Source: Paramacrobiotus metropolitanus
Lineage: Eukaryota; Tardigrada; Eutardigrada; Parachela; Macrobiotidae
NCBI RefSeq assembly: GCF_019649055.1
Contig: NW_026570244.1
Coordinates: 1,178,001-1,242,000 of the forward strand
Length of the DNA: 64,000 bases
Direction of reading: 5' to 3'
Program-made: the position numbers and the translations under genes
In this document: one piece after another, positions 17,670 through 59,410 of the stretch
Layout: the number at the start of each line of letters is the position of its first letter
Position numbering within the stretch: position 1 is the first letter of the stretch
The notes under the pieces: generated by a model
Seen by the model: the letters and a program-made list of their open reading frames with translations, nothing else
What the model was told of the DNA's origin: nothing
Database searches by the model: none

Positions 17670-20600
17670 ATGGCTTCGTCGTACTACAACATGATGAAGG
17701 GCGGTCGCGGCGAGAAGAAGGACGAGGACGCGGGCGGCGCGGAGAACCCCTTCCGCAACCTGGACAGGAGCACGGTGCTGCAGGAGGCGCGCATCTTCAA
17801 CGAGACGCCGGTGAACGTGCGCAAGTGCAGTCTGGTGCTGACCAAGATCCTCTACATGCTCAACCAGGGCGAGACGCTCAGCACGCGCGAGGCCACCAAC
17901 TTCTTCTTCGCCATCACCAAACTCTTCCAGTCCAGCGATGTTCCTTTGCGAAGACTCGTCTTCCTCTGCATCAAGGAACTCTGCAAGGTGTGTTGTGGTT
18001 TTGTGCTAGTTTTATCCGTAGATAAATTGTAAAACCTTGGGAGAGGGCTGGTGTTGCTGAAATATTTAAGATCGCAGGACTTGGTTCGTGCAACTGAAAA
18101 TTCGCTGTGCACGCTGCTGACGCTAGCTGGCTGCTAGCCTGCTGCTGATTGGTTTCATGTTTCAGATTGTTTCTGTTCTTAAATTTTACTAAAACACTTT
18201 TCCCCTTTTTTATCTACTTGTGGCATTTTTTGTAGTTGATTACTTAATCCTGAAAAATTCTGGGAATTTTTTTTTTATTTCTGAAATTTCGTTTGCAGTT
18301 TGTAATCAGTTTCGAGTTTTTCATGGATCTTTCCTTCAGCTGGTGCTGGCTGCGTCTTTATCATTGACGCTTGTACTCTGTACTTTCAAATCGTTAAGTG
18401 CATTACTAGTGTGTCAGTGTCACTACTACTAGTTTGGATAAGCGTAATTTGGTTAATTTCCATTGCAAAAGTAATCAGCCAGTTGATTGGTTAGGTGGCG
18501 GAGGACGTGATCATCGTGACCAGTAGTCTGATGAAGGACATGACGGGCAAGGAGGAGGCGTACCGCGCCGCGGCCATCCGCGCGCTGTGCATGATCGTCG
18601 ACCAGTCCATGCTGCAGTCCGTCGAGCGCTACATGAAGCAGGCCGTCGTCGACAAGAGCCCCCACGTCGCCAGCGCCGCCTTACTCGCTTCGCTCCATTT
18701 CTGCCAGGTACCTAATTTAACAACGCCATCTGCCAGCCGCAGCTGCAGTTTTTAAAAATCGTTTTATCCGTTTATATCTACGTACTTCGTGGACGGAGTC
18801 ACCGGGCCGGTACCACTTATTCAGAGGTTGACTTTTTTGTTATTCACCACTTTGCTTTAACTGAAATGCTGCTGTAAATATCTGTTATCTATTGAGAGAA
18901 TAATTTATAATTTTGTTGACGGTTTATGATTTTATCAGACAGGGATTTAACGTTTAGTGGAATATCGATTTATTGGTTAACGTATTGATTTAATCCCAAT
19001 TAATTGATCCGTGTGACCCGATTATTTACCGTTTCTTAGAGATTTATTTACTGTTAATTTATCAATTGATTGGATATCGTCCAGGCGTCGTTGCTGTCTG
19101 GTTTTTGTTTTGCGGAACAGTGAGCGGCAACCATAAGAGGTGTTTTATTTGTGTGGCAGCGCGGCGGGCCGAGCGCGGAGGTGGTGAAGCGCTGGGCGAA
19201 CGAGGTGCAGGAGGCGACGAACAGCGACAACCCCATGGTGCAGTACCACGCCCTGGCGCTGCTCTACAACATCCGCAAGGGCGACCGACTGGCCGTCAAC
19301 AAACTGCTGGCCAAGTTCACCGCCGGCCGCTATCTCAAGTCCCCGCTGGCCGTCTGCTTCCTCGTCAAGGTCGTCGCCAAGACCATCCAGGTCAGTCAGG
19401 ACTCTTCCTTGTTAAATAGAGGATCGACTGGTGATTTAAATGTTTCATATCGTATTTTTCCAGGAAGAGGCCGGTTTAGGCCAGATCAACGCGAGTAACT
19501 TTGACTTCCTGGAGTCGTGCCTCCGTCACAAGTCGGAGATGGTGGTCAACGAGGCGGCGCACGCCTTAGTCAACCTGCGGCACGCCAGCGGCCGCGAACT
19601 GACGCCGGCCATCTCCGTGCTGCAGCTCTTCTGCTCCTCCGCCAAGCCCACCATCCGCTACACCGCCGTGCGCACCTTGAGCCAGCTGGCCATGACGCAC
19701 CCGGCCGCGGTCAGCGCCTGCAACATGGACCTGGAGAACCTCATCACCGACACCAACCGCTCCATCGCCACGCTGGCCATCACCACGCTCCTCAAGACCG
19801 GCAACGAGGGCAACGTCGACCGGCTCATGAAGCAGATCACGTCATTCATGAACGACATTAGCGACGAATTCAAGGCGAGTGTGTTGTTTATTAATTTGAG
19901 ATAAATCTGCTTATTTAATTTTACTACTGAAATTTATTTTTCCGATTAATCTGGTGTGTCTTGTATTTATTTTGAAATAAATTTGCTTATTTGGCAAGTA
20001 TTACTGATGGTTAATTTGTTATTAATCGGGTGTGCTGTGTATTTATTTTCAAAATAAATCTATTTATATAAAAAAATGAAATTTATTTTGTTGGTAATCG
20101 GGTGGGTTTGATTGGTGCAGGTGGTGGTGGTGAACGCGGTGAAGGCGTTGTGCCTCAAGTTCCCGAAGAAGCACGCGCTGATGATGACGTATTTAGCGGG
20201 GATGCTGCGCGAGGAGGGCGGGTACGAGTTCAAGCGCGCGCTGGTGGACACGCTGGTCAGCATCGTGGAGGACAACGCGGAGGCGCGCGAGACGGGCCTG
20301 ACGCACCTGTGCGAGTTCATCGAGGACTGCGAGCACACCAACCTGGCCGTGCGCATCCTGGCGCTGCTGGGCCGCGAGGGCCCCCGGGCCCGGCAGCCGC
20401 ACAAGTACATCCGCTACATCTACAACCGCGTCATCCTGGAGAACGCGCCCGTGCGCGCCGCCGCCGTCACCGCCATGGCCAAGTTCGCCGCCTTCAACGA
20501 GGAGCTGCGCGCCAACATCATGGTGCTGCTCAAGCGCTGCATGATGGACCAGGACGACGAGGTGCGCGACCGCGCCACCTACTACTTCTACGTGCTGGAC

Positions 20601-22585
20601 AGCCACCAGACCGCGCTCTACAACCACTACATCCTCGGCGCGCTGCAGGTATTGCGTCTGCAGTATTTTTAATTTTTTTATTATTTTGTCGGTCGGCTTT
20701 TCGGCCAATTGTCCATTTCGTTCGCGTGGTTTTCTTCGCTTTAAAATTAATTTGAAAGAAACAGAGAAATTACTGTACATTTGTAGTTAAACATTACCCA
20801 ATTATGATGACTGTTATGAATTAAATTTTTTAAAAATTGAATATATATTATAATTAAAATACCATAATTATTTTGAAAAATAGTTTCCCTTTTTAGCTTC
20901 GCTCAAAGATCAATTTAAACGTTTAACTTTTTAGTTTCGCCTGAGAACTAAATTAAAAATTAGTAATTTAAACTGGAAAATCAGGTTAAAAATCGATTAA
21001 AAAGAACTATTATTAATTGAGTTACTATAAAAATTCAGTTAAATGGTAATCGCTGCCGCAGGTGTCGCTGGTGTCGTTGGAGCGCGCGTTGCACAGCTAC
21101 GTGAGCGCCCCCACCGAGGAGCCCTTCGATCTGCGCAGCGTGCCCATCGTCACGGCCGAGGAGAAGCGTCCGCGCCCCGACGCCGCCACCGCCACGCAGG
21201 TGCGGGCGGCCGCGGCCGACACCCCCGGCGGCGGCGCCGCGGCCACGCCGGCGACGGCCAGCGCCGTGGACTCGTATGTCGAGACCTTCAAGAAGATGCC
21301 GCAGATCGCCGCCCTCGGACCGCTCTTCAAATCGTCGGCGCCGGTGCAGCTGACGGAGCCGGAGACGGAGTACGTCGTCAAGTGCATCAAGCACACCTTC
21401 GCGCACGACCTCGTCTTCCAGTTCGACTGCACCAACACCATGAACGACCAGCTCCTCGAGAACGTCACCGTCAAGGTCGAGGCCGCCGCCGACACCGGCT
21501 TCGTCGTCGACGGGACCATTCCCTGCGCTAAGTTGGAGTGCAACGTGCCCGGTGAGTGGCGGCGTCTATTATTTTCCTCAATTTTTATCATTATTCTTCT
21601 CTGTTTTGTTTTTATTTATTTTTTCGACCCCAGAGCGACGTGTTTTATATTTTTTAATTTGATAAAACTATTTTTTATATTTTTTTGTATAATACTCGCC
21701 GCAGGAACAGTGTGTTATTAATTTGTTGTCACGTGTTTTTAATGCCTTTTAAAGATAGGTATTAAATTTATTAAGGTAATATTCGGTATTTATTTTTGAA
21801 TTTTTTCATATTTATTTTGTGGTGTTCTCTTTTTTATTTTAATTTATTTTATTCGACACAGGAGCGACGTGTTTTATATTTTTTTAATTTAATAAAATAA
21901 TTTTTTATATTTTTTGTGTAATATTCGCCGCAGGAACAGTGTGTGTTATTAATTTGTCGTCACGTGTTTTTATTGCCTATTAAGATTAGGCATTAAAATT
22001 GTTAACGTAATAATCGGTTTTTGGTTTTTCGAATTTTTTCTGATGGTTCTTGTTGCGTTACTCGTCGCAGGAACGACGTACACGCGCGTGCGCCTGCCGG
22101 AGGACGACGTGGCGGCCACGGGGGCTCTGGAGTGTTCCCTGCAGTTCACGGCGAAGGACTGCGACCCCAACACGGGCGAGGTGGACGAGGAGGGCTACCC
22201 CGAGGCGTACTCCCTCGAGCCGGTGGAGATCACGCTGGCGGACCACGTGCAGCGCACCATCGTGGCCAACTTCGCCGCCGCCTGGGAGGAGCTGGGCGCC
22301 GACCGCGAGAGCAGCTCCACCTACGCCCTTAATCAGTTCAAGCAGCTGCAGGAGGCCGCCGACAGCGTCGTCGGCTTCTTCGGCATGCAGCCGCTGGACC
22401 GCAGCGACCGCGTGCCCGCCGAGAAGAGCGCCCACGTGCTGCTCATGGCGGGCGTCTTCCGCGGGAACGTCGCCGTGCTGGTGCGCTGCCGCCTGGCCGC
22501 CGCGGGGGACAGCGGCGTGGCCATGAAGCTGGAGGTGCGCAGCGAGGACCCCGACGTCAACGAGGCCATCATCCAGGCCATGTAG
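17670..22585 (+). CDS. COPG1: Coatomer subunit gamma (COPI), complete
   Basis: Gamma-COP is a large adaptor-like subunit of the COPI coat, which forms retrograde Golgi-to-ER and intra-Golgi vesicles. Seven exons: 17670-17987, 18495-18707, 19160-19390, 19464-19874, 20121-20648, 21062-21551, 22071-22585. They sum to exactly 902 codons (901 aa), close to the usual ~870. The HEAT-like trunk covers exons 1-5 ([75 protein letters not shown]). Exon 6 has the linker and the start of the C-terminal appendage ([17 protein letters not shown]). Exon 7 completes the appendage ([33 protein letters not shown]). The start ATG is the first in frame and fits the family N-terminus. Intron 4 begins GC rather than GT. 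The first four exons are duplicated on the opposite strand at 33.2-35.5 kb. Confidence 0.95.
21640..22075 (+). repeat. Intron duplication with decoy splice acceptors
   Basis: Within COPG intron 6 a ~228-bp segment (GAGCGACGTGTTTTATATT...CGCCGCAGGAAC...GTCACGTGTTTTT) occurs twice. The acceptor-like word CGCCGCAGGAACAG at about 21703 and 21931 imitates the real acceptor CGTCGCAG|GAACGA at 22070. The intron has evidently grown by copying its own 3' end. Confidence 0.8.
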
Positions 22586-23133: not shown

Positions 23134-26100
23134 TCACAGTCGAAAAGCCTCGCTGACGGCCAACAAGGCCATCGTGCTCAGCTGGCCAATGTCCAGCTGC
23201 CTCAGGTCAACAGTGTCCCAGTGCAGTGGTGTCCCGTCCGATTGAAATCCACTGAATCTGTATTAAATCATAAACGATTAGGTCAATGTCACGGCGTGAG
23301 CGCCATGCAAAGATGTGACGGTATCGCAGCTTTTTTTACCGCCATATACAGTATATACTGCAGCACTTACACGGACAACATCTGGCGAATGCGCTGCCAT
23401 TCGTCGGGATAACTGAGCTTCTCCAGCCAACGTGCGTGAATGGCCCGCACTTTCCGGTACACATCGGCGCCGGCGGCCGGGAACGCGGCGTCGATGGCGC
23501 GCATGAACCGGCTCATGACGGCCTCCCAACCGTCGACGCAGGGCAGCATGAACCGGTGAAGCGTGATCTCTGTGGTATTCATAGTAAATAAAGTTCCCTG
23601 CCCGCCCATCATCAAGTCGTTGGCTGGGATAATCAGATGCTTCTCCGCCGCGGGGATCGGGACTGGATCTTCTTCATCGTACAGCACATGTCCAAGATAG
23701 GATTACAAAACAGACCGGATAACTGGCAGTTGTGCAGGATCAAGCTCTGACAGTGACCTTTGAAGGGCGCAATGCGGCGCATGATGCCGTGTTTCAACAA
23801 CGAACTCGTGTCACTGTACTCGTACAACGAACCAGAAAAAGGAAAACGGCCATTTCCAATGACCACAGGGGCAGGTGGATGTTGGTAACGCCCAGCCAAG
23901 CTGGGATGAAGAAAGTGTGCTCCTTGCGGTTAAGGTCCGTTATGGTGAGGCTCTTGGTTGCGGAATTGACTGCACGATGCAGCAACAGTGCCGTGTTGTA
24001 ACAATTGTCGAGTAGACAATTCGTGGAGACACAACCTGTGAAGCTGATTATGACATGCTCGTCGAGTGTCCCAGGAGCGCTGGATATCGCATGCCACAAC
24101 CAGCAAACGCTAAATAAATTACACGGGCTTTAACATCGAAAACCGCAAACAAAGAAACGGGACATTACCAATAAAAATCCATATTTACGTCTGCATGGTC
24201 AGAGCAGAGCAGAGCAGTGGTCAGAGTCAACGCCGGACTCTGACCACTAAATCTACTAATCTGATTACTTACTTAAAACTGTAAAAGTCATTTTACAATT
24301 GTTAGTGTAAAAACGGTCCTCTTACTTACGTGCTTTTATGTGCAAAATTTAAGGAGGTCGGTATATGTATAATGAGACTTTTGGTATACCAGATTGCATT
24401 TAAACTTTTGGAAATTTTCTTACAGCTATAACTCCCAACCGGATGTTGCGCGCCCAAACAGTTTTAATGCCTCGGTACAGACAAAATCACCTGGCTCCAA
24501 AACGTCATAAAACAACGCAAAGGGGGTTTGCGAGTGCGCGAAAGTGGAAGTTTTCGTGTATGTAAACGGATTTCTTACCATGTACCAGGTGACTTAGCCG
24601 TTAAGCAAAGCTTACAGTATTTTACTGGAGGCTTGGGCGGTGATTTTAGGGGTAAGGAAACTGTAGGACACGGTGGGTACCAAGTTACCAACGGCAACAA
24701 CTAACTACGTAATTTACCGTTTGATCCGCATTCGAGCTTGCAGGTGCAGATTAGCCAATATTTCCATCAGAATGCTATGCGACATACTGCAGATGCTGGT
24801 TTTCGGACTAATACTCTCAGATTCTATAATAAAACCATCGTTTAGTACAGACTAAACCGATTCTGAGCGAGGTTATCAAAAAATATTCTGTAAAATCATG
24901 CACCATGAGTCCATGACTGACCAGTGAGTAATACTTGCAGTAGCTAGTAGCTACCATTAGTACCATACCATGAGCGCTGCTAAAGCGTCTCCACTTTTCC
25001 ATAGCATCTATTAGTCTATTGTATTACTATTATTAATTGTGTGATAATAATGTACCATTATGATTGTAATAATACTTTAAGATAATATCACAGTATTAAT
25101 AAGTGTCAATTGCGTTTGATACTTGTCTTGGTACGGTCGTTTACAATACTCGTATACAACTCCACAAACCGATTTTGTTCCGGCTTTTTTCTTTACCAGA
25201 TTAAACAGGATGTGCCCTTTACAAAGTACTTGAAATCTTTAAAAGATCTTGAGCCGTTTTCTTGCAGTTGCGTCGTGAAGATCAGTGACGAAAGCACTTT
25301 AGTCACGCCACGTGAGCCACTGCACTACACAAATAGAACTGCAGTCAATGCGCCACACATGTGCGACTGCGCTTTGCAGTTCAGACTTCATTTTTTCTTC
25401 ACAATTCATTTTTTCCTTCTGTTCTTCAGATCTAATTTCTGTTAAAATGAATTCGCTTTTGTTTATATGTCCATGTGCTAACTTCGTCACGGCGATGACG
25501 CAGCCGCACATGGGTCGCGGTGACTGCAATTCTATTCGTGTAGTGCAGTGGGTCACCTGGCGTGGCTAAAGTGCTTTCGTCACTGATCTTTACGACGCCA
25601 CTGCGAGAAAACGGCTCAAGATTTTTGACAAATTTCAAGTACTCTGTAAAGGGTACATTCGGTTTAGTCGGGTAAAGAAAAAAACCGGAAGAAAATCGGT
25701 TTGTGGAGTTTTCTATTTTAGGTGGTCCACTTACACCGTTGTTAAACGACCGTACGAGTAGTACTAGAAGCGTACGATTGCAAGCTTTACCGCAAAAAGT
25801 TGCACCTGCATCATTAATATTTCCACAAAATTCCCCGTTGTCGGGGCAGTTCGGGTATCTTAAAGGTTGTCCATGATGCCGGCTATTGAAGTGTTCATCC
25901 AAGATTGCATGCAAAGCAAGTCTAGTTCTTTCGTGCTCGATGATCGTGTCCGTACTGTGCGTTATGACAAGGAAAGTACACGACTCCCATCCAACGCTCA
26001 GGTGAAAGCGGCAACCGTCCGACAGCGCAGTTGCCGGATTGCAACGATCGTCTTGGTAGCTTACGCGAAAGTGTGATGAGGCGGTATACATCGGCGGCTT

Positions 26101-26942
26101 CCTCAAGAACCCGGCCCGTTTTCAAAACAGGGATAATGAATTTCCTATACGTCAAAAGGTTGCTCTTCTCTTGAAAGGGCATTTCATCGGAAGGCAGGTG
26201 TTCCACTATTTGACAGCGGTCCACCACTTCAATAAAGGCCGAAGAGGTCACGCCGGAAGTCTGCCATCTGACGTAGCACAAGCGACACACTGTAAAAACC
26301 CCTTTCAATCACCTTGCCTTAACACGATCCAGATTAAACTTTTACTTATAGAACTCACGTTTAACACACTCCAGCAAAGTGGCAGGACGAAACCGAAATG
26401 GCCCGTCCATCTCGTCGCGTAGCGCTACCCATACCGGCTTATTCCTCCACTCGGTCAGTGACTTGTTGTCGAAAAGGAGCGGCAAAGGGTGTACGAAGCG
26501 GGAGAGTATCCAGCACGCGGGCTTTTTCCTGGAATCAAATTCCACGAACGCAAAACTCTCGTCCACTGTCAGATCCTGCAACAAAGGTCACGACTACACA
26601 CTTAATCTCGGACCCGCCGAAGGGGTGGTGGAGTTCGCACGGGAATCACCCACTCGGCCACTCCCATCCCGGAGACTGCTCATTTCACATGTCATCCTTA
26701 CACCCAACGCAGGACGCAACACCACAATGACAAAACGTACGCAAGCCCAATACGCACTGGTTTATTCTCCACTCTGGCGTTCTTTCTTGGTACATAGAAC
26801 ACACTGACCTGTATAAAACCTAGCCACCAAACGCCGTCCAGGCTGCGCACTGCCACCGTATTCTGATGGCCGAACCTGTTGACCCCGTGCAGCACGCGTC
26901 GAAATGCAGGCAGACTGGCCTGGCCCGGCTTTCCATGCTGGT
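23134..26942 (-). pseudogene. F-box-like family gene, six exons, frameshifted (locus A)
   Basis: Exons, 5' to 3': 26942-26809, 26575-26359, 26289-25806, 24833-24718, 24109-23371, 23257-23134. Exon 1 (NRFGHQNTVAVRSLDGVWW) and exon 2 (FDSRKKPACW...PVWVALRDEMDGP, 217 bases) match loci B and C. Exon 3 holds VVDRCQIVEHLPSDEM and LSDGCRFHLSVG. Exon 4 is the F-box-like segment SILMEILANLHLQARMRIKR, entered by G|AA exactly as in locus C. Exon 5 opens VCWLWHAI and ends PDEWQRIRQMLSV. Exon 6 reads DLRQLDIGQLSTMALLAVSE. Defects: a 5-base shift just after the expected ATG at 26936; a 1-base loss in exon 3 after DVYRLIT (near 26065); and two frame changes in exon 5 near 23850 and 23690. A foldback element sits in intron 3. 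The splice sites are all preserved, so decay looks recent. Confidence 0.75.
25131..25755. mobile_element. Foldback (long inverted repeat) element
   Basis: Two arms of about 245 bases, roughly 25131-25375 and 25755-25505 (reverse complement), share long blocks such as GATCAGTGACGAAAGCACTTTAG, CTCCACAAACCGATTTT and GAGCCGTTTTC, separated by a ~130-base centre. Divergence between arms is about 10-15 percent with a few indels. It lies in intron 3 of the locus-A pseudogene. Apparent ORFs across it are by-products of the symmetry. Confidence 0.8.
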
Positions 26943-30976: not shown

Positions 30977-32218
30977 AACACTACACGCCACGAGTGATGG
31001 ATTGATGCCAGGCCAGCGAATGTGGAATATCAATCAGCGGATTACGAATATTAGCTATCCGTCCAAATGATCCAGTGCGTCGGAAGTGTGCAGCTAGTGT
31101 GCCAGCAGTCGTCAGCAGTACTGGCCCATCGTGGGCAGCTTGCGCGACTAGCTGGATGCCCCGGAATACACCGCTGTATTATGCAGCAACCGGAGTAAAC
31201 AATCAACAAGCTGCTGGCAAGTGTCCGCGCGCTGCTGCAGTTCTCAGCTCGGTGTCGCGTCGTTGCCGGTGCAGTCGGCGGAAAGCACGATACCAACCAT
31301 CCTGGTCACTGCCAAGTGACAACGCAGTGCCGAATCACCACCGCCAACATACTGTACAAAATACAAGGTGCAATGCAAATATCTGTATATGCCGGCAGAC
31401 AGTATAATGTTAAATGTAATACGGTCTACCTACGTCTTACGAGCAGCAATAATCGCATAGAAGCATGAGTAAGAATGTCAATTTGTACAAAATGTACAAT
31501 ATACTGTGCAATGCTCATAATCGATGTACTGTGTACTTGAACGTGGCCCGATCGAGCGAGCCGTTAAATAAGGCGCAACGTAATGTCCGTCCGCGTTCGT
31601 GACCTCGCTTTCCGCCGGCTCATATAGTATGCAGTGCATACGTAACTGCCAAGTTATAATTATTGCGACTGCTAGCCGACGTGCACCTTGAACCTGCTGA
31701 TAACGCCAGCCGGTCCAGCAGAACACGGCCGCTGAGTGTGACATATCTGTTAAATCGTTGTTTTTGTCGTAGCACGAAACCTCACAGTCCGACTGCGGCG
31801 TCACACCGGCCGCGTACAGCCGTCGTGCGCTATGGATATTCTATTCGCGATATGGTCAGTTGCACCGGCTGCCGGGCTGCAGCGTTAACGCTACGCCCAC
31901 TGCACGTCCATCAGCCGAGTATCTGTAGACGTACAATATATATAAACACCGCACGATTGCCATGAATTTATTCAGCTCCGCTTAGCGTTCTGCCGCAATT
32001 CGTAAACATCCAAAAAAAGCCGAAAATTATTATTATTGCTGCATCCCGATCACCATCATACTCGCACACTGACATAAACGCTAAAAAACATCAACAAAAC
32101 TGCCGGGAAAAAAAATTGCAAAAATGCATCGAAGCCGACAGTTGAATCGGCGACACACGTATGCAGATACCGCAGGGAAAGACGTGAGTGAAAGCACGCA
32201 TCTGAGGCTCCTACTGTC
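30977..32218. other. Intergenic, nothing recognised
   Basis: Intermediate GC, many CAG/GCTG words, no coherent exon. It contains the presumed promoter of the CUB-like gene and the 3' flank of the COPG-BORA chimera. Confidence 0.4.
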
Positions 32219-35200
32219 CTACACCATCCCGAAGCCCATGGATTCGTCCAGATTGGCCAGGAGCGAACCCGGCTGCTCCGGTTCAACGAGGAAATTAAAC
32301 GAGGGCGCGCGGAGAGGCGCCGGCGCGGCGCTCGTCTCCTTTTCGCGCTCCGGCGGGCCGGGGTCGTCGGGGAAGAGGCGGCGCCGGATGGTGGCCGTCG
32401 AGAAGGAGCGGCTGGGGTGGAGATGCCCGAGGGGACGCAGCGCCCCCCGCGCCAACTGGTAGTCGGCGAAGTGGCGGCTAAAGTCCATGCGCGCCGGGAT
32501 GGACACCTCCGTCTGCACGGCGGCGTCGCGCTGCTGGCGGGCGGAGGGCGGCGGCCGTTCGAGGGTGTAGGAGGGCATGCGCACCACGCCCAACATCAGC
32601 GCCTCCGCCTCGCTGTCCGAGTCTTCCTCGTCGCTCGACGGCGCGGGCCGGCGCTTGCTGTCCGGCGTCGGCGTCATCGGGTGCACCGCGTCGTCGTTGA
32701 AAAATCTGCAACAAGAAAGAAACAATTTTCATAGAAAAAAATCATGTCAACAATTTTAAAAAAGTCATTCACAGCGACTTCATAATTCCATCACTGCGGA
32801 GTAATAAATTTACCGGCGAATGTGGTCCTGCGCGTCCTCCTCGTCCGACTCGGACACCACGTGCTTGAGCAGTTCGGTGCGCAGGACGTCCTGGTGCGGA
32901 ATGTCCACCGGCTGCAGCGCCGCCATGTGGTCGATGGACCAGGCGAAGCCGGCGTCCTCGTTGGAGCGGGCGCGCTGCTCCTGGTCGAGGAAGTCGGCCC
33001 ACTTGCTGGCCATGGCCTGCGACAGGTCCAGCGGCTCGAAGGGGTTGTCGTGCTTCAGCGGCGTGCGCGGCGACAGGCCGCTCTCCTTCTTCAGCTCCGC
33101 CCGCAGCGCCAGCAGGTACGGCTCGGTGCGGTAGCGGCGCAGGCGGGTGCGGCGCATGACGCCCGAGGAGCTGCTGCTGGCCAGCGGCTGACTGCGCGGC
33201 ATCTGGTTGGAGGACAAGGAGCGCAGCGGACTGCAGCAGCGGGAGGAAGAGGGCTGCGCGTGGCTGCAGCCGGCGGGGCTGTTCTCGTTGCAGGCGGACG
33301 GGAGGTGGGTCAGGGCGCGATGGGCGGTGTGGCGGAGGACGGGGCGGTCGGAGGCGCGGAAGAGGTGGAGGACGGAGAGCGCCGGCGTCAGATCGCGGCC
33401 GCTGGCGTGCCGCAGGTTGACCAGCGCGTGCGCCGCCTCGTTGACCACCATCTCCGACTTGTGACGGAGGCAGGACTCCAGGAAGTCGAAATTACTCGAG
33501 TTGATCTGGCCCAGCCCGGCCTCTTCCTGGAGATGACAAATATGCAACATTGGAATGACCAGCCAGTCGTCTATTTAAATTAGGAAGCGTCGTGACTGAC
33601 CTGGATGGTTTTGGCGACGACCTTGACGAGGAAGCAGACGGCCAGCGGGGACTTCAAGTAGCGGCCGGCGGTGAACTTGGCCAGCAATTTGTTGACGGCC
33701 AGTCTATCCCCCTTGCGGATGTTGTAGAGCAGAGCAAGGGCGTGGTACTGCACCATGGGGTTGTCGCTGTTCGTCGCCTCCTGCACCTCGTTCGCCCAGC
33801 GCTTCACCACCTCCGCGCTCTGCCCGCCGCGCTGTTTAAACACAAACAACACAGCTGCGTTACCATCGCTGTTTCTTCCGCAAAATACAGACTCTAGACA
33901 GCGACGACGCCTGGACGATAACCGATCAAGTAATAGTAAATAAACGCATAAGAATCTCTAAGAAACGGTAAATTCGTAATATGTAAATCAATAACTTCTG
34001 ATCAAATCAATATCAATAAATTAAGAGTAAATCAATGTGTCAACCAATAAATCAATATCCAACCACACGCTAAATATCTGTAAGATATGGACTGATCAAC
34101 CGCCCACAGCGCTATAAATTAATCTCTCTCTCAATAAAAAATATCTACATCAGCATTTCAATTAATGCAAAGTGGTGAAAAGCAAAACGGACGAATCGCC
34201 GATTAAGCGGTACCGGTCCGGTCCATCAAATACATATAAATGGGTTAAAAATTAATAACAAAATGGTTGAAAATGATATTTGCGGTAGGCAGATGCCGTA
34301 GTTAATTTACCTGGCAGAAGTGGAGCGAAGCGAGCAAGGCGGCGCTGGCGACGTGGGGGCTCTTGTCGACGATGGCCTGCTTCATGTAGCGCTCGACGGA
34401 CTGCAGCATGGACTGGTCGACGATCATGCACAGCGCGCGGATGGCCGCGGCGCGGTACGCCTCCTCCTTGCCCGTCATGTCCTTCATCAGACTACTGGTC
34501 ACGATGATCACGTCCTCCGCCACCTAATCAATCGATCGATTAATTATTTCCGCAATGGAAATTAATCAGAATTACGCTTAATGCAAACTAGTGACACTCT
34601 AATAGTGCAGCTGATGATTTGACAGTAAAATCAATACCATAAAATACAAGCGACAGCGCCAGCTGAGAGTAAAATCCATGAAAAAAATCAAAACTAAATA
34701 ATAATGGCGACCAAAAATTCCAGAAATGCGAATAAAAAACTTCAAGCATAAAATCCTAAAATTAAGAATTCAGCTAGAAACAATACCATACATGAAAATG
34801 GGGAAGGGTGTTCTATTATGAAGACAAACAAGTTGGTAAGCAATCACCAACAGCCAGCTAGCGTTAGCACTAGCAGCGTGCACAGCGAGTATTCGGCTGC
34901 ACGAACAACTCAACCAAGTACTTCCATCTTGAATATTACAGCAAAAACAGCCATCTCCCAAGGTTTTAGAATTTACCTACGGATTTAACCAGCTCAAAAC
35001 CACGACATACCTTGCAGAGTTCCTTGATGCAGAGGAAGACGAGTCTTCGCAAAGGAACATCGCTGGACTGGAAGAGTTTGGTGATGGCGAAGAAGAAGTT
35101 GGTGGCCTCGCGCGTGCTGAGCGTCTCGCCCTGGTTGAGCATGTACAGGATCTTGGTCAGCACCAGACTGCACTTGCGCACGTTCACCGGCGTCTCGTTG

Positions 35201-35475
35201 AAGATGCGCGCCTCCTGCAGCACCGTGCTGCGCTCCACCGTCAGCAGACTGCGCAGTTCAAACGGGTTCTCCCCAGTCAAACGGCAGTTTTTCCCGTTCT
35301 CCGTCAAATCACAGTGTGATGGCGCCCACGCCATTGGCATACCGCCGTTCGCATTCATCGCAACGAAAGGCTTAAACAAAAACCAGGAGAACAATCTTCT
35401 ACAACCGATAACGCCGTCGCCATGCGATCGCTGGTAACGATGATACAAGTCAAAATGCAGATTTACACTGGCCAT
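32219..35475 (-). CDS. In-frame chimera: coatomer-gamma N-terminal half fused to BORA
   Basis: Five exons: 35475-35011, 34523-34311, 33831-33601, 33526-32814, 32705-32219, exactly 703 codons (702 aa). Exons 1-3 and the start of exon 4 repeat COPG exons 1-4 with the same boundaries and almost identical protein (e.g. [12 protein letters not shown] against [12 protein letters not shown]). A novel N-terminus replaces the COPG start; [22 protein letters not shown] joins the shared part. COPG similarity fades after [15 protein letters not shown] and ends near SACN (about residue 383). The rest matches protein aurora borealis, the Plk1/Aurora-A cofactor in mitotic entry: [60 protein letters not shown]. 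An ATG at 33202 could start a normal-length BORA alone. So either a fusion protein, or BORA with a COPG-derived leader, is possible. Introns are homologous to COPG but diverged, while exons are conserved. Confidence 0.8.
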
Positions 35476-35987: not shown

Positions 35988-37217
35988 ATGAGCGACAAAC
36001 ATTGGAAAGCGGAAAGCAGCCGCTCTGTGGAAATGAGCAGAAGCGCGCGGGCTACGAACAGCGAAAACAGGAGCAGCTCTCTGGCAGCGACAGCCACCGC
36101 GTTGGCCGGCATGATTCCCGTGTCGGAGACGGTTTCTGGTCAGTTTGGATGGGCCAGTCGTAATTTTATTTATTGCAGTACTCGTATTATTGCTGCACAT
36201 AGCTATAAGTCTGCTTCGGAATATGAGGCTCGTTGATAAACGAAATGAAGCCTAATAAATTGTATCTGTATAGTATAGCGTGTCGTTGGATGTTGCAGGC
36301 GCCCTGGACAGTGTGCGCGCCCACATGGACGACGCGGGCAACGTGATCGTGCGGACGGGACGCCAGCTGCTGGATCCCGACGCGGAGGAGGGGGATGAGG
36401 AGGGCCCGCTGTCGCTGGTGGACCGCGCGCTGCACAGCCTGGCCACGGCCAGTCGCGCGCAGCAGATCACGGCTGGCGGCGCCACGGGGTGGTAGGCCAC
36501 GCGACAGACACACGCCGTGTAACTGCTGGTTGAATAACTGTTCAATCTGGCCTGTTCGTTGCAGGCTGTCCGGGTACCTCTTCAACAAATTCGGCCGACC
36601 GGTGATTTACATCATGGGCAGCAGTCTTATCGTCGTCCTCGTAAGTGACTGTCACTCAGTGCTGATTTAATAAGAACAGAATGCAGAAACTGTTAAAACC
36701 AGCGATATACGCAATACAGGAATGTTCCACGGTCAGATTTTTTTTGCAAACCGACTTCAAATTCGTGCTCAGCGCATCGAATAACTCTTAAGAAACGAGA
36801 TGTAGGCCATTTCACCACGTAGTTATTGAGGTCCAACAAATCCAAAATGCCGGTGAATAGCCAAGATGAGTAGGGAAAACAGTATTTTGTATTGCGTTGA
36901 ATGTTTGTGACGTGTGTGTGTAGTTCGCGGAGCATCTGGGCTACCTGACGGTGGACTGGAGCAAGTTCCGGCGCGACTACCACGCCGGCCGGCGCAACGT
37001 GGAGCAGCGCATCCGCGGTCTGGCGCAGATGGACGCGCAGCAGGCGGCGCGCCGCGGCGGCCGGCCCTGGCTGGAGAAGGTACTTATTTCAGCTGTTGAA
37101 CGTGTCGAGTGCATTAGCGTAACCGTGTGCTGGGCGCAGATCAAGGTGCTGGCACGGACCAGTCCCTACCTCAGCGGCGGATTCATCGGCGGCATCCTGC
37201 TGGGACTGGCCTCCTGA
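35988..37217 (+). CDS. FUNDC1: FUN14 domain-containing protein
   Basis: FUN14 proteins sit in the mitochondrial outer membrane; FUNDC1 acts as a mitophagy receptor and at ER-mitochondria contacts. Five exons: 35988-36138, 36299-36491, 36565-36640, 36924-37079, 37140-37217, exactly 218 codons (217 aa). The N-terminal ~100 residues are Ser/Ala-rich, then acidic (DPDAEEGDEEGP). The FUN14 domain follows: QQITAGGATGW at the exon 2-3 joint, LSGYLFNKFGRPVIYIMGSS (first membrane segments), LGYLTVDWSKFRRDY, and the diagnostic C-terminal SGGFIGGILLGLAS. The N-terminus lacks an obvious YxxL LC3-interacting motif of the kind found in vertebrate FUNDC1, so a mitophagy role is not assured. Assignment to FUNDC1 rather than FUNDC2 rests on family resemblance only. 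Confidence 0.85.
36700..36890. repeat. Dispersed intronic repeat, copy 1
   Basis: Lies in intron 3 of the FUN14 gene. It shares TTTTTTTTGCAAACCG, TGCTCAGCGCATCGAA and CACCACGTAGTTA-type words with the channel-gene intron at 53.66-53.88 kb. This points to a short interspersed repeat family. Confidence 0.6.
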
Positions 37218-37578
37218 CCGCTGACGCTCGGCGCGATACCAGTGTAATCTCTGATTAGTCCATGACTTGCGCTTGTGATCCGGCTGCTGCTTGGCCGCTC
37301 ATTGCTGGACAGTTGATTGCTGGGCATCATTGCACACGTCTGCCTCTGCCATTTATTTTGCTGTGTCTTCGGATTATGATACTTTATCATTTTTGTGCTG
37401 ACTGTTTACTGCGATAGTTCTATACTTCTGTTAAATTTTATTACTGTCCCGAATAAGGGAGGCAGAGAAATCTGGCAACAATAATGGCAAAATGTTGGCA
37501 GTGTTTGAAGAGGACTGATAGTGAGAATGAACAAATATATGAGAAAGACTAAGGAATACAGTAAATGTGGATTACACA
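37218..37578. other. 3'-to-3' spacer between FUN14 gene and F-box-like locus D
   Basis: The two genes converge here. No gene inside; AATAAG near 37450 is a weak poly(A) candidate for the + strand. Confidence 0.35.
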
Positions 37579-39289
37579 TTATCCATCTAGTCTTGCCGTG
37601 GCTGGCCCGAATAGGCTGTCCAGAGCGGCCATCGTCACCGGGCCGTGCTGCATCGCCGGCACCGGCCACTCCACATCCGGTTCCTCGACCTCGTATGACA
37701 ACACCAAACGCCAGGCAGGATTGCTAGATTCCGTGCTGCAGGGCAACAACACTTTCAGCCACTACAATTCTGATTATTTTTCTTAATTGTTGTGATTTAA
37801 TTTTATAATTTTGCCTACTTTTTTTGACTGGAAGCAATATAATAAGTGGAACGTTGAAAAACATGAGACCCACACTGCCAAAATCGTCTTCATCACGCCC
37901 CAGTAGCAACGGGCGTCCTTCAGCGGCAGTGAGCGCCAGTACTCCAGCATGACCTTTACGTTAGCGCTCATGTCGGACGACACCGCCGGCGCCAGGGCCA
38001 CCTCCACGGCCTGCACGACCACGTCCAGGGTGGCGTCCCTATCCCGGCAGCTGTCCAGGCGGAGGTCGGCCAGCCGGACGTCCACCGAGCGGCGCGTCCC
38101 ACCCCGAAAAGTATAAAGGTGCGATTCGCGCTGAGTCCCTCCGCGGCCGAACGAGCCGAAGACATCCTGCATGACGTAGTCGCGGAGAATCAACCGTCGA
38201 CACAGCGCCAGCAGCGGTCCCAGGCGGTGCAGTGGACCGCACCACGCGATGCAGACGGGGTCTTTGGCGCCGATCCCCACCGCCTCCAAGGCACGGTTCA
38301 TGCGCCAGCTGGAGCTGAGGTCGTGGTCGACGACGCAGTGCTGCAGGACGATGCGCGGCACCGACCCGCCGACGAGCAGCGGCAGTATGTAGCCTAGGAC
38401 GGTAATGTCCGCGGTGGCGCGGTTAAAGGTCGCCCGCGCCAGCCCCGGCGTCCAGTGACGCAGCGTCAGCGTCTGCACGTCGCCGGTTAAGCAGCGGAAG
38501 AGCGCGCGGCCCAGGCGGAACATATCTTCGGCGAGACTGTCGCTGGCGGGGCGCAGCCGGAAGTCAAAGGTCACGTGCTGGCGCAGTGCCGGACGCGTGG
38601 TCAACAGCGCGTTCCATGCCGGACTGACCCTATACACCCACGGAAATGAATGTACGGGTGCGAGATACACGGCCGGGACTGTCCTTACTGTACCTTCTTA
38701 GTCGGGCCCGGGTCTGCATGTCGACATGCTCCAGGATGCCCTCGACCATATCCAGGGACATAACGGCAAAGCTGACACCGCACGGCATTGCGGAGGACGC
38801 AGAACTGGCGCTAAACGTGACCTCTGGCTGATCCAGAATCCCGGCATCAACGGAACCATGCCCGTCGAGTCCCCAAACGTTTCCCTGACCAGCGTGAACC
38901 CGATCCCACAGCGAACGCCCCGGTGAATCGTGAAAGGGCGCGACCAGCTGCATCCGGTGCACGAGATGCCGGGCGCCGTCAGCTGGCGTCTGCACGAGGG
39001 CGAACTGTACCTGCCCGAAGCAGCAGAAGGACAGGATGGAGGCCGGCTGCAGCGTAAGGGGATCGCGGCGGCGATCGGCGCGTAACGCCACCAGCACCGG
39101 GCCGGCGTGGGGCGGGTGGACGTGGGGGAACAACGCCTGCAGGGGGAAGCAGCGCGGGGCCAGGCGCTCGCACCGGAAGTCCACGCTGACCTCGGCGCCG
39201 AAGCCGGATGTCTGCCGCAGGAAGCCCAGACACCACTGCTCTTCCCGGCTGTCGGGATGTCGCACCAACACAATGGGGACGCGAGCCAT
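37579..39289 (-). CDS. F-box-like family protein, intact full-length copy (locus D)
   Basis: Three exons: 39289-38694, 38629-37874, 37735-37579, exactly 503 codons (502 aa). The N-terminal part (EEQWCLGFLRQ, PVLVALRADRRRDPLTLQPA, QVQFALVQTP, VHRMQLVAPF) corresponds to exons 1-3 of loci A and C but is fused in one exon, so introns were lost here. At the exon 1-2 joint is the F-box-like segment: LDMVEGILEHVDMQTRARLRR and VSPAWNALL, split by a phase-2 intron (AG|GTACAG). The long second exon holds TLTLRHWTPGLARATF, PRIVLQHCVVDHDLSSSW and repeated RL-x-L-D/R-L words that look leucine-rich-repeat-like. The last exon (EWPVPAMQHGPVTMAALDS) follows the family's phase-2 intron. If the F-box is functional, it would be a substrate receptor of an SCF ubiquitin ligase; substrate unknown. 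Confidence 0.7.
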
Positions 39290-40536: not shown

Positions 40537-41786
40537 TAGTGTTGTGCTACTAAATAAAATTAAATAACGGCCATTTACTTAGTAAAAGTCCGCCTAATAT
40601 TAAAAGTCTAGCAAATAGTAAGGTTTTGGAAACAAAATAAGTAAAAGTAAGTAAATGTGCTGCCGGAATAGTAAAAAGTAAGTAAATATTAAGGTTTAGC
40701 GTTGACTAAATAAAAATCAATTACTAAATTATTTACTAATTCGTTTTATCTAGTGTTGTGCTACTAAATAAAATTAAATAACGGCCATTTACTTAGTAAA
40801 AGTCCGCCTAATATTAAAAGTCTAGCAAATAGTAAGGTTTTGGAAACAAAATAAGTAAAAGTAAGTAAATGTGCTGCCGGAATAGTAAAAAGTAAGTAAA
40901 TATTAAGGTTTAGCGTTGACTAAATAAAAATCAATTACTAAATTATTTACTAATTCGTTTTATCAAGCGTTATGTAAAATTGGCGTGTTAGCCGCCGCCT
41001 CTCGCAGGTAAAGTGAGTGTGCGCAGTAGTTGGCTGACAGCCTACCGCCCTAAAAAGCAGCAGTATTTACTTTTCAGTATGCGCCTGCATGGCTGTATAG
41101 CTCTATTAATGCATAAGAAAATTTTCTGCGCCATTTTCAGTACTTTTCAGCGCTTTGAAACTAACGCAATTCGACACTTTCAGTCCTAATTACATTTATT
41201 TAGTAAATTTACTTTAATTTAGTAAGTAAATGTCCTTGGAAAAATTGAAATAGTAAGTAAAAGTAAGTAAAAGTCCCGAGAAATTTTAAATAGTAAGTAA
41301 AAATAAGTAAACTTCCAAAAGCAGATAGTAAAAATAAGTATATTGGCAAGGACTTTTACTACCCAACACTAGTTTTATCAAGCGTTATGTAAAATTGGCG
41401 TGTTAGCCGCCGCCTCTCGCAGGTAAAGTGAGTGTGCGCAGTAGTTGGCTGACAGCCTACCGCCCTAAAAAGCAGCAGTATTTACTTTTCAGTATGCGCC
41501 TGCATGGCTGTATAGCTCTATTAATGCATAAGAAAATTTTCTGCGCCATTTTCAGTACTTTTCAGCGCTTTGAAACTAACGCAATTCGACACTTTCAGTC
41601 CTAATTACATTTATTTAGTAAATTTACTTTAATTTAGTAAGTAAATGTCCTTGGAAAAATTGAAATAGTAAGTAAAAGTAAGTAAAAGTCCCGAGAAATT
41701 TTAAATAGTAAGTAAAAATAAGTAAACTTCCAAAAGCAGATAGTAAAAATAAGTATATTGGCAAGGACTTTTACTACCCAACACTA
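40537..41786. mobile_element. hAT-type MITE with 8-bp target duplication and internal duplications
   Basis: The element starts TAGTGTTGTGCTACTAAA and ends with the near-complement of TAGTGTTGGGTAGTAAA. It is flanked on both sides by GTGTACAT (40529-40536 and 41787-41794), an exact 8-bp target-site duplication typical of hAT elements. Inside, a 214-bp unit is repeated twice in tandem (40537-40750, 40751-40964), then a 415-bp unit twice (about 40957-41371 and 41372-41786). Copies are essentially identical. The interior is rich in GTAAGTAAA. No transposase is encoded. Confidence 0.9.
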
Positions 41787-41794
41787 GTGTACAT

Positions 41795-57391: not shown

Positions 57392-58880
57392 ATGGAAGGC
57401 CCGGCAAGTCTGCCTCCATTTAGACGCCTGTTGCGGGGGGTCAACGGGTTCAGTCATCAGAATACGGTTGCAGTGCGCAGCCTGGACGGGATTTGGTGGT
57501 TAGGTTATTTACAGGTAAGTGTATTCTGTATACCGCGCGAGTTTTCGAGAGGAACGCAATTTAAAATTGACAAGGGATAAAGAGTACCTAAACAATTTGT
57601 AGTTAATGATATCTGTTATGTCATAGCAATCAGTAGAACATAAAATATAATTAAATAATTTAAAGAAGTTCCTTAAACGAAAGCAGCCATCATCTTCAGC
57701 CATAGCAATCTGTAAATGCTGCAAAGGTCACCTTTGATCACGAAAGTATATCGCTTGCCGGTGACCTACTATTGCTGGAGTGTATTGATCGTGAGTTGTA
57801 TAAGGCCGCTTGTATTCTGGATCATGATGAGGCAAGGTGTTTTGAAAGATCGTTTTTTCAGTGTGTCATTTGTGCTACGTCAGCTGGCAGACTTCCGGCG
57901 TCACAGACCGCACTTCTTCAACCTTTATTGAAGTGGTGGACCGCTGTCAGATAGTGGAACAGCTGCCCTTGGAGGAAATGGCCTTTCAAGAGAAAAGCCA
58001 CCTTTTGACGTACAGGAAGTTCATTATCCCTGTTCTGCAAACGGAGCCGGTTCTGCAGGAAGCCGCCGATGTATACCGCCTGATCACATTGTTTCGTCGA
58101 AGCTATCACCATGATCACTGCATTTACACAACGTCGCTGTCGGACGGTTGTCGCTTTCACCTGACCGTTGGATCGGACTCTTGCACTCTCATGGTCATAA
58201 CTCATAGTACGGACACCATCACGGAGCACGAAAGAACGAGACTTGCTTTGCATGCAGTCCTGGATGAACATTTCCAGAGCCGGCATCAGGGACCACCTTT
58301 AAGACACCCTCACTGCCCCGACAACGGAGAACTTGTTTGTTTGTTTGTACGTCGCCGGTCTAGCAGCTCTTCCGCTGCTAGACCGGCGACGTACAAACGC
58401 TAACGCTGCGCCACTGGACGCCGGGGCTGGCGCGGGCGACCTTTAACCGCGCCACCGCGGACCTCGAGGTCCTGGCCTACGTGCTGCCGCTGCTCGTCGG
58501 CGGGCCGGTGCCGCGCATCGTCCTGCAGCACTGCGTCGTCGAGGACGACCTCAGCTCCAGATGGCGCATGAATCGCGCCTTGGACGCGGTGGGGATCGGC
58601 GCCGAGGACCCCGTCTGCTTTTCGTGGTGTGGTCCCCTGCACCGCCTGGGACCGCTGCTGGTCCGGTGCCGCCGACTTATCCTCCGCGACTACGTCATGC
58701 AGGATATCTTCGGCTCGTTCGGCCGCGGAGAGAGTCCGCGGCAGTCGCACCTGTATACGGGGCGGGGTGTTTGGCGCCGCCCAATGGACGTCCGGCTGGC
58801 CGACCTCCGCCTGGACAGCAGGGAAGCCACTCTGGGCGTGGTCATGCAGGCCGTGGAGGTGGACGCTTATTCACTAATTA
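57392..58880 (+). pseudogene. F-box-like chimera joining two subfamilies (locus B)
   Basis: Exon 1 (57392-57514; FSHQNTVAVRSLDGIWW) starts with ATG after a conserved TGTAG|GTCAGC acceptor-like leader. Exon 2, the 217-base exon of loci A and C, is missing. Exon 3 begins at 57862 (TTTTTTCAG|TGTGTCATT) with VVDRCQIVEQLPLEEM, DVYRLITLFRR and LSDGCRFHLTVG, closest to locus A. After NGELVC the sequence enters a perfect 56-base hairpin (58343-58398). It emerges inside exon-2-type sequence of locus D (TLTLRHWTPGLARATF ... MDVRLADLRLDS, to about 58860), but in a different frame. The F-box segment is lost at the junction. Both halves are well preserved, so the fusion is recent. The missing end of the D-type part lies nearby in inverted orientation. 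Confidence 0.75.
58343..58398. repeat. Perfect hairpin at chimera junction, 25-bp arms, 6-nt loop
   Basis: The arm starting GTTTGTACGTCGCCGGTCTA at 58343 is exactly mirrored from 58374 to 58398 around TCTTCC. It separates the locus-A-like and locus-D-like halves of locus B. Confidence 0.92.
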
Positions 58881-58984
58881 ATGTACCACATGCTGCAGTA
58901 ATGAATACTAACAACAATAACTGTTGACATTTGAGAACAGATCAGTGTCGAGTTAAGAGAAAATGTAATAAAGAGTAATTACGC

Positions 58985-59410
58985 ATTATCCATCTACTGT
59001 AGTCTTCCCGTGGCTCGGCCGAATAGGCTATCCAGAGCGGCGGTCGTCACTGGGCTGTGCCGCATCGCCGACACGGGCCACTCCACATCCGGTTAGTCAA
59101 TCTCGTAGGGCAACGCCAGATGCCCGGCAGGATTGCGGGAGTCGGTGCTGCCGTGCCACCGTCGTCATCACAGCCACAACAACTTTAATTAGTCTCTTTT
59201 AACTGCTGTGATTTATTTTTTCTTGTATCAGTGAGCCGATTGTGCAAATGAACAATTATCAAGTTGCTTTCTAAAAAATCATTAGACTTACACCGCCGGA
59301 ATCCTCTTCATCGCCGCCCGGTAGCGCCGGGCGTCCTCCGGTGGCAGCGCGAGCGCTAGTATTCCAGCATGACCTTTACGTTTAGTGCACATGTCGGTCG
59401 ACACCGCCGG
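58985..59410 (-). pseudogene. Inverted 3' fragment of a locus-D-type gene
   Basis: On the minus strand, 59405-59294 matches the end of locus-D exon 2 (KVMLEY then a TAG in place of the Trp codon). It has a 1-base insertion just before and a preserved phase-2 donor GT|GTAAGT. About 59156-58990 matches the last exon (PDVEWPVSAMRHSPVT, AALDSLF), with a TAA before PDVEWP. Together with 58.39-58.86 kb on the plus strand it accounts for one D-type gene split by an inversion. Confidence 0.75.

Follow-up and report, generated by a model that had tools for sequence, protein, structure and literature searches.

A partial copy of the gamma-COP gene is fused in frame to BORA in the tardigrade Paramacrobiotus metropolitanus

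Can a piece of a vesicle-coat gene be joined to a regulator of mitosis, and is the protein sequence of such a chimera maintained once it has arisen? This question is raised by a minus-strand locus (copy A) in a window of 64,000 nucleotides, the whole stretch of DNA analysed here, which lies on contig C24 of the P. metropolitanus assembly (169.8 Mb, 533 contigs; all genome searches covered this assembly). The original prediction for the locus was that the N-terminal half of the gamma-COP gene (COPG) is fused in frame to BORA, and that the coatomer part has been under purifying selection since.

Results

Structure of the fusion gene

Copy A was composed of five exons in which a COPG piece was in frame with BORA; all four introns were of the GT-AG type, and a single frame ran from exon 1 (E1) to the terminal TAG. 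E1 (35011..35358) encodes approximately 30 residues followed by COPG homology (NPF... to ELCK), and E2 (34311..34523; VAEDV...HFCQ) and E3 (33601..33831; RGGQS...KTIQ) are derived from COPG. E4 (32814..33526) contains 80 COPG-derived codons and then BORA, with an intronless joint, and E5 (32219..32705) contains BORA up to the stop codon. An AATAAA signal was located on the same strand at 31967..31972, 246 bases past the stop. For E1, in-frame ATGs were found at 35334, 35340, 35358, and 35475, and the product has 702 codons from 35475, 663 from 35358, and 655 from 35334, the last of which (MAW...) is the sole start common to copy A and the second copy described below (copy B). Five exons in one frame over 702 codons had been predicted; the frame held, and the start that yields 702 codons is not shared by copy B.

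The parent COPG gene is located on the plus strand at 17670..22585, where Adaptin_N matches were obtained, with exons 1–4 at 17670-17987, 18495-18707, 19160-19390, and 19464-19874 and frames beyond exon 4 traced to 22582. Its exon 4 seems to have a GC donor (TTCAAG/gcgagt) at 19875, corresponding to a GC-AG intron. The COPG homology of copy A begins within COPG exon 1 and ends midway through COPG exon 4, and the E1/E2, E2/E3, and E3/E4 boundaries lie at the same positions in both genes, in agreement with the prediction. No similarity between copy A and COPG was visible upstream of this piece in the identity profile, so the copied piece did not include the promoter or start codon of COPG. At the joint (33286..33289), which had been placed near 33286, the COPG homology ends at ...SACN and is followed by ENSPAG....

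Domains and motifs of the predicted protein

In the 663-residue version of the product, two Pfam families scored above their cut-offs: Adaptin_N matched residues 42–339 (204.4 bits; profile positions 1–292 of 524), and BORA_N matched residues 422–617 (E 4e-20; 72.8 bits against a cut-off of 27; profile positions 14–213 of 225). BORA is thus encoded downstream in the frame of the fusion, as proposed. The coatomer part was aligned to residues 16–314 of chain B of 3TJZ (E 6e-109), the 355-residue gamma-COP chain that was crystallised with ARF1 and zeta-COP, and 256 of 260 core residues were the same as in COPG of this genome. The piece therefore amounts to about a third of the 874-residue gamma-COP rather than to an N-terminal half. 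It differs from the crystallised trunk in ending at about residue 330 and in its last ~30 codons, which are changed, and from gamma-COP as a whole in that the C-terminal trunk, linker, and appendage are absent and a Bora protein follows. Since the COPG homology stops at 33286 and BORA comes next, the fusion was not classed as a coatomer subunit. Chance similarity was rejected as an explanation because both Pfam families fall in one frame, the 3TJZ alignment is strong, and the joint recurs in copy B; at the sequence level, this is an in-frame fusion of a COPG piece to BORA. Among the nine window proteins scanned, the eight neighbouring frames had no Pfam family.

The BORA part contains NPFE, which we take to correspond to F25 of motif M1 in the human Bora sequence; there is no aromatic residue six residues on, and a W is found thirteen residues on. 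The FF of motif M2 (...RRFFNDD...) was recovered across the E4/E5 junction, and S/T-P sites come after it. The M3 region reads PMTPTP, with proline at +7 and T-P at +9/+10, one place late. Bora (aurora borealis), the Aurora-A cofactor for Plk1 activation, is described in the accessible text of one study as working via two TPX2-like motifs and a Pro-pSer112-Pro motif, the motif residues being F25 and Y31 (M1), F103 and F104 (M2), and pSer112, eight after F104 (M3) (PMC7997955). The fusion resembles Bora in BORA_N, NPFE, FF, and the S/T-P sites after FF, and it differs in its coatomer N-terminus of ~330 residues, in having no free-standing counterpart in our genome searches, and, with respect to the motifs given in that text, in having no aromatic residue at the Y31 spacing and a phosphorylatable residue one place later than in Pro-Ser-Pro. 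The genome also contains Polo-box genes, with four matches at two loci.

A second copy of the fusion

Adaptin_N matches on C24 formed three groups, namely, parent COPG, copy A, and copy B. Copy B (Adaptin_N match at C24 1306377-1307988, plus strand; region L001) is inverted relative to copy A and lies 92.9 kb away; a 2084-base alignment with copy A is 87.0% identical and a 1690-base alignment 92.0%, and the COPG-BORA joint of copy A was also found in copy B. Exon 1 of copy B has a 2-base deletion upstream of FNETP, and the upstream ATGs run out of frame; the trunk frame is available from a new internal ATG, giving 612 codons. Above the ATG equivalent to 35334, the copy B frame is open for nine codons and contains one further ATG. 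Neither AATAAA nor ATTAAA was present within 600 bases past the copy B stop.

Searching the genome with the BORA_N profile yielded three matches, all in copies A and B; this search missed copy B exon 5, so a diverged BORA copy could escape detection. With the BORA-part protein as the query, copies A and B accounted for four exon matches, and a single weak stretch was hit elsewhere (C236, E 0.68, 34% identity). No convincing free-standing BORA was thus obtained by the profile and protein searches, and copies A and B appear to be the sole convincing BORA loci found in the genome.

Downstream of copy B, and convergent with it, lies a COPG 3' remnant (L001 6866-7378 and onward), an arrangement that mirrors COPG and copy A. 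The remnant retains 71.4% DNA identity and is spread over several frames, its main two pieces showing 59% and 63% protein identity. The blocks of A and B also have neighbour pieces in common (window 23.1–26.6 kb and 35.8–38.1 kb), whose different order favours segmental duplication over haplotypes. An allelic duplicate or haplotig as the source of copy B was disfavoured, since its flanks are not collinear with those of copy A. A plus-strand frame at 36400-36694 stands head-to-head with copy A and has a counterpart beside copy B (C24:1300649-1300937; 88% identical over ~297 bases); the frame and the fusion may have a common promoter.

Gene conversion among the two copies and COPG

The identity profile across A, B, and COPG was a patchwork. 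The dS values against COPG in E1 and E2 were 0.024 and 0.044 for A and 0.106 and 0.283 for B, and those at the start of E4 were 0.096 for B and 0.326 for A. Between A and B, all 476 aligned bases of intron 2 were identical, with two small gaps. The stretches of 100% identity (33334-32914 of the window, and 34310-33832, intron 2, corresponding to L001 3765-4240) adjoin stretches of 85–93%, and the two copies did not differ over most of the E4 BORA sequence. These fully identical patches probably reflect gene conversion or assembly polishing. Judging from the patchwork, gene conversion accounts for part of the exon sameness; as its sole cause, pure conversion was rejected. The selection argument consequently rests on stretches with substantial silent divergence.

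Selection on the COPG-derived part

Nei-Gojobori counts covered 260 codons and ran from FNETP, which is preceded in E1 by ~20 COPG-like codons, to the middle of E4. Copy A and COPG differed by 21.0 synonymous and 5.0 nonsynonymous changes (dS 0.127, dN 0.0084), and dN/dS was 0.066, not near 1, the value that had been named as speaking against selection. The corresponding counts were 27.3 and 8.7 for B vs COPG (dN/dS 0.086) and 26.3 and 7.7 for A vs B (0.079). Only 4 of 260 residues in copy A differed from COPG, and likewise four in copy B, which bears out the predicted near-identity of the coatomer part in protein. No indels were present in 780 exon bases, and the introns contained 23 indel events over 986 aligned bases for A vs COPG (73.1% identity) and 25 over 943 for B vs COPG (75.8%). 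The contrast between unchanged protein and diverged introns was thus observed as predicted, but it mixes two causes, selection and conversion, because conversion also makes E1 and E2 alike. The frame-broken COPG 3' remnant beside copy B serves as a neutral comparison for the COPG part.

In a simulation of 2000 runs, the COPG lineage took silent changes only and the fused lineage was neutral. Over the 260 codons, the mean was 28.6 nonsynonymous changes, and none of the 2000 runs had ≤5. For E3+E4a, 23.3 were expected and 4 were seen (P 0.0005), and the data fit a dN/dS of 0.25 in the fused lineage. Whereas a row labelled 'unconverted' (B E2 with A E3 and E4a; B exon 1 excluded) was picked after the patchwork had been seen, the E3+E4a row and the row of all 260 codons (copy A) are independent of that choice.

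Conservation was lacking in the final ~30 codons leading up to the joint, where 22 codons had 4 synonymous and 14 nonsynonymous changes, a ratio of 1.47. In E3+E4a, dS was 0.18–0.33 and dN 0.012–0.018, compared with 0.26 and 0.37 in the tail of the COPG stretch of E4 (18:4 v 4:14, Fisher's test on rounded counts, p = 3e-4). The low dN/dS, together with the contrast between a silent-rich, replacement-poor stretch and this tail, shows that the trunk core is kept by selection and its cut end released. Copy B exon 1 was weakly constrained (dN/dS 0.30 vs A and 0.37 vs COPG). In the BORA part, A and B differed by 4 synonymous and 7 nonsynonymous changes, all in E5 (dN/dS 0.57); purifying selection was not seen in this comparison, which has little power after recent conversion. 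The COPG part has been under purifying selection after the fusion, as predicted, over the 260 codons counted; part of its sameness is due to conversion, and the last ~30 codons do not follow the prediction.

Discussion

The arrangement of the locus suggests that the 5' part of COPG, starting within exon 1, ending midway through exon 4, and still carrying its introns, was copied, inverted, and placed upstream of BORA. The first exons of the resulting gene would specify the core of the gamma-COP trunk that binds ARF1 and zeta-COP, and its last one and a half would specify Bora; the whole block would later have been duplicated again, inverted, ~93 kb away. A chimeric mRNA and protein would be made, in which the trunk piece, so similar to COPG, presumably retains its fold and can bind ARF1-GTP, zeta-COP, or both. 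In the available text of a study of the coat, each trunk domain is described as binding one Arf1, which anchors the coat (PMC5482573); such binding could place Bora, the Aurora-A/Plk1 activator, at Golgi/COPI membranes. From the sequence evidence, we consider it fairly probable that a partial COPG duplication gave a translated chimera through which Bora would be brought to ARF1/COPI membranes; the tethering itself is an inference. A further proposal is tentative and rather doubtful: should the putative coat-tethered Bora be the only one, ARF1-GTP on the Golgi might set the Aurora-A/Plk1-activating pool, a hard-wired coupling of the Golgi to mitosis. In mammalian cells, a 'Golgi mitotic checkpoint' involving Aurora-A has been described, according to the accessible part of that report (PMC4895030).

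Bora might instead be made alone, from a promoter or start codon internal to exon 4, with the COPG exons being a partial duplicate that conversion from the nearby parent keeps COPG-like. An in-frame Met at 33202, 57 residues before the conserved NPFE, would suit such a product, and conversion is visible both at the A/COPG silent sites of E1–E2 and between A and B in intron 2 and most of the E4 BORA part. However, conversion erases differences at silent and replacement sites equally, and the stretches that were not recently converted have a silent divergence of 0.18–0.33 vs a replacement divergence of ~0.01–0.02; a neutral fused lineage was rejected in the simulation, and both the frame and the splice sites have been preserved through E1–E4 of A and E2–E4 of B, which makes this explanation unlikely. 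The strong constraint on the COPG codons, set beside the lack of any between A and B in the BORA part, would also fit a selected product that is a truncated gamma-COP fragment titrating zeta-COP or ARF1, made, for example, if intron 3 or intron 4 supplied a polyadenylation site, the downstream Bora being incidental. Yet COPG and BORA occupy one exon 4 with neither stop nor intron between them, so a COPG-only product needs an extra processing event; moreover, no convincing BORA loci besides A and B were found, and the BORA_N domain is intact. We regard this possibility as quite improbable.

An assembly artefact, in the form of either a chimeric junction or haplotypes set next to one another, appears very improbable. 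If the assembly is that of Paramacrobiotus sp. TYO, which the accessible text of its report describes as built with Canu, nanopolish, Pilon, and HaploMerger2 (PMC8277472), these tools can misplace haplotypes or blend paralogues, and the fully identical A-B patches could partly be polishing. Nevertheless, the joint is present in two copies that differ by 8–13% and have different flanks, and outside the fusion only scattered, reordered pieces are common to both blocks, with no continuous allelic alignment.

We thus favour a translated chimera. If it is made, the only detected Bora of this animal has been replaced by one with a selected vesicle-coat module, a core cell-cycle gene has gained a localisation module through partial duplication, and the species offers a natural experiment on Golgi/mitosis coupling. 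To our knowledge, no other source describes COPG joined to BORA, or what looks here like the replacement of a core mitotic gene. Making chimeric genes by partial duplication is itself a known process, as in the Oryza fusion genes presented in the accessible part of PMC9199173; like these, the present case joins in frame a partial copy with its introns while the parent is kept. Relative to that account, it differs in that the partner is apparently the sole BORA, so that a cell-cycle gene is replaced, not supplemented, and in that conversion moves sequence among the parent and the two copies. No COPG-BORA fusion appeared among the listed titles and abstract openings on coatomer-Bora or tardigrade gene fusions, which is no proof of absence.

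Other features of the region

Repeated gene-like blocks (~70–86% identical) were observed in the window (37573-38503 and 58366-59410; 25759-26615 and 57772-58334) and also in the copy B region (C24:1294–1300 kb, L003), and their scanned frames contained no Pfam families. At 40537-41788, the window also has direct repeats that are 224 and 537 bases long, with identities of 98.7% and 91.6%, respectively. CAHS proteins are, as far as is known, specific to eutardigrades, and a CAHS query gave 18 matches in the genome, the best with 53% identity (E 2e-57).
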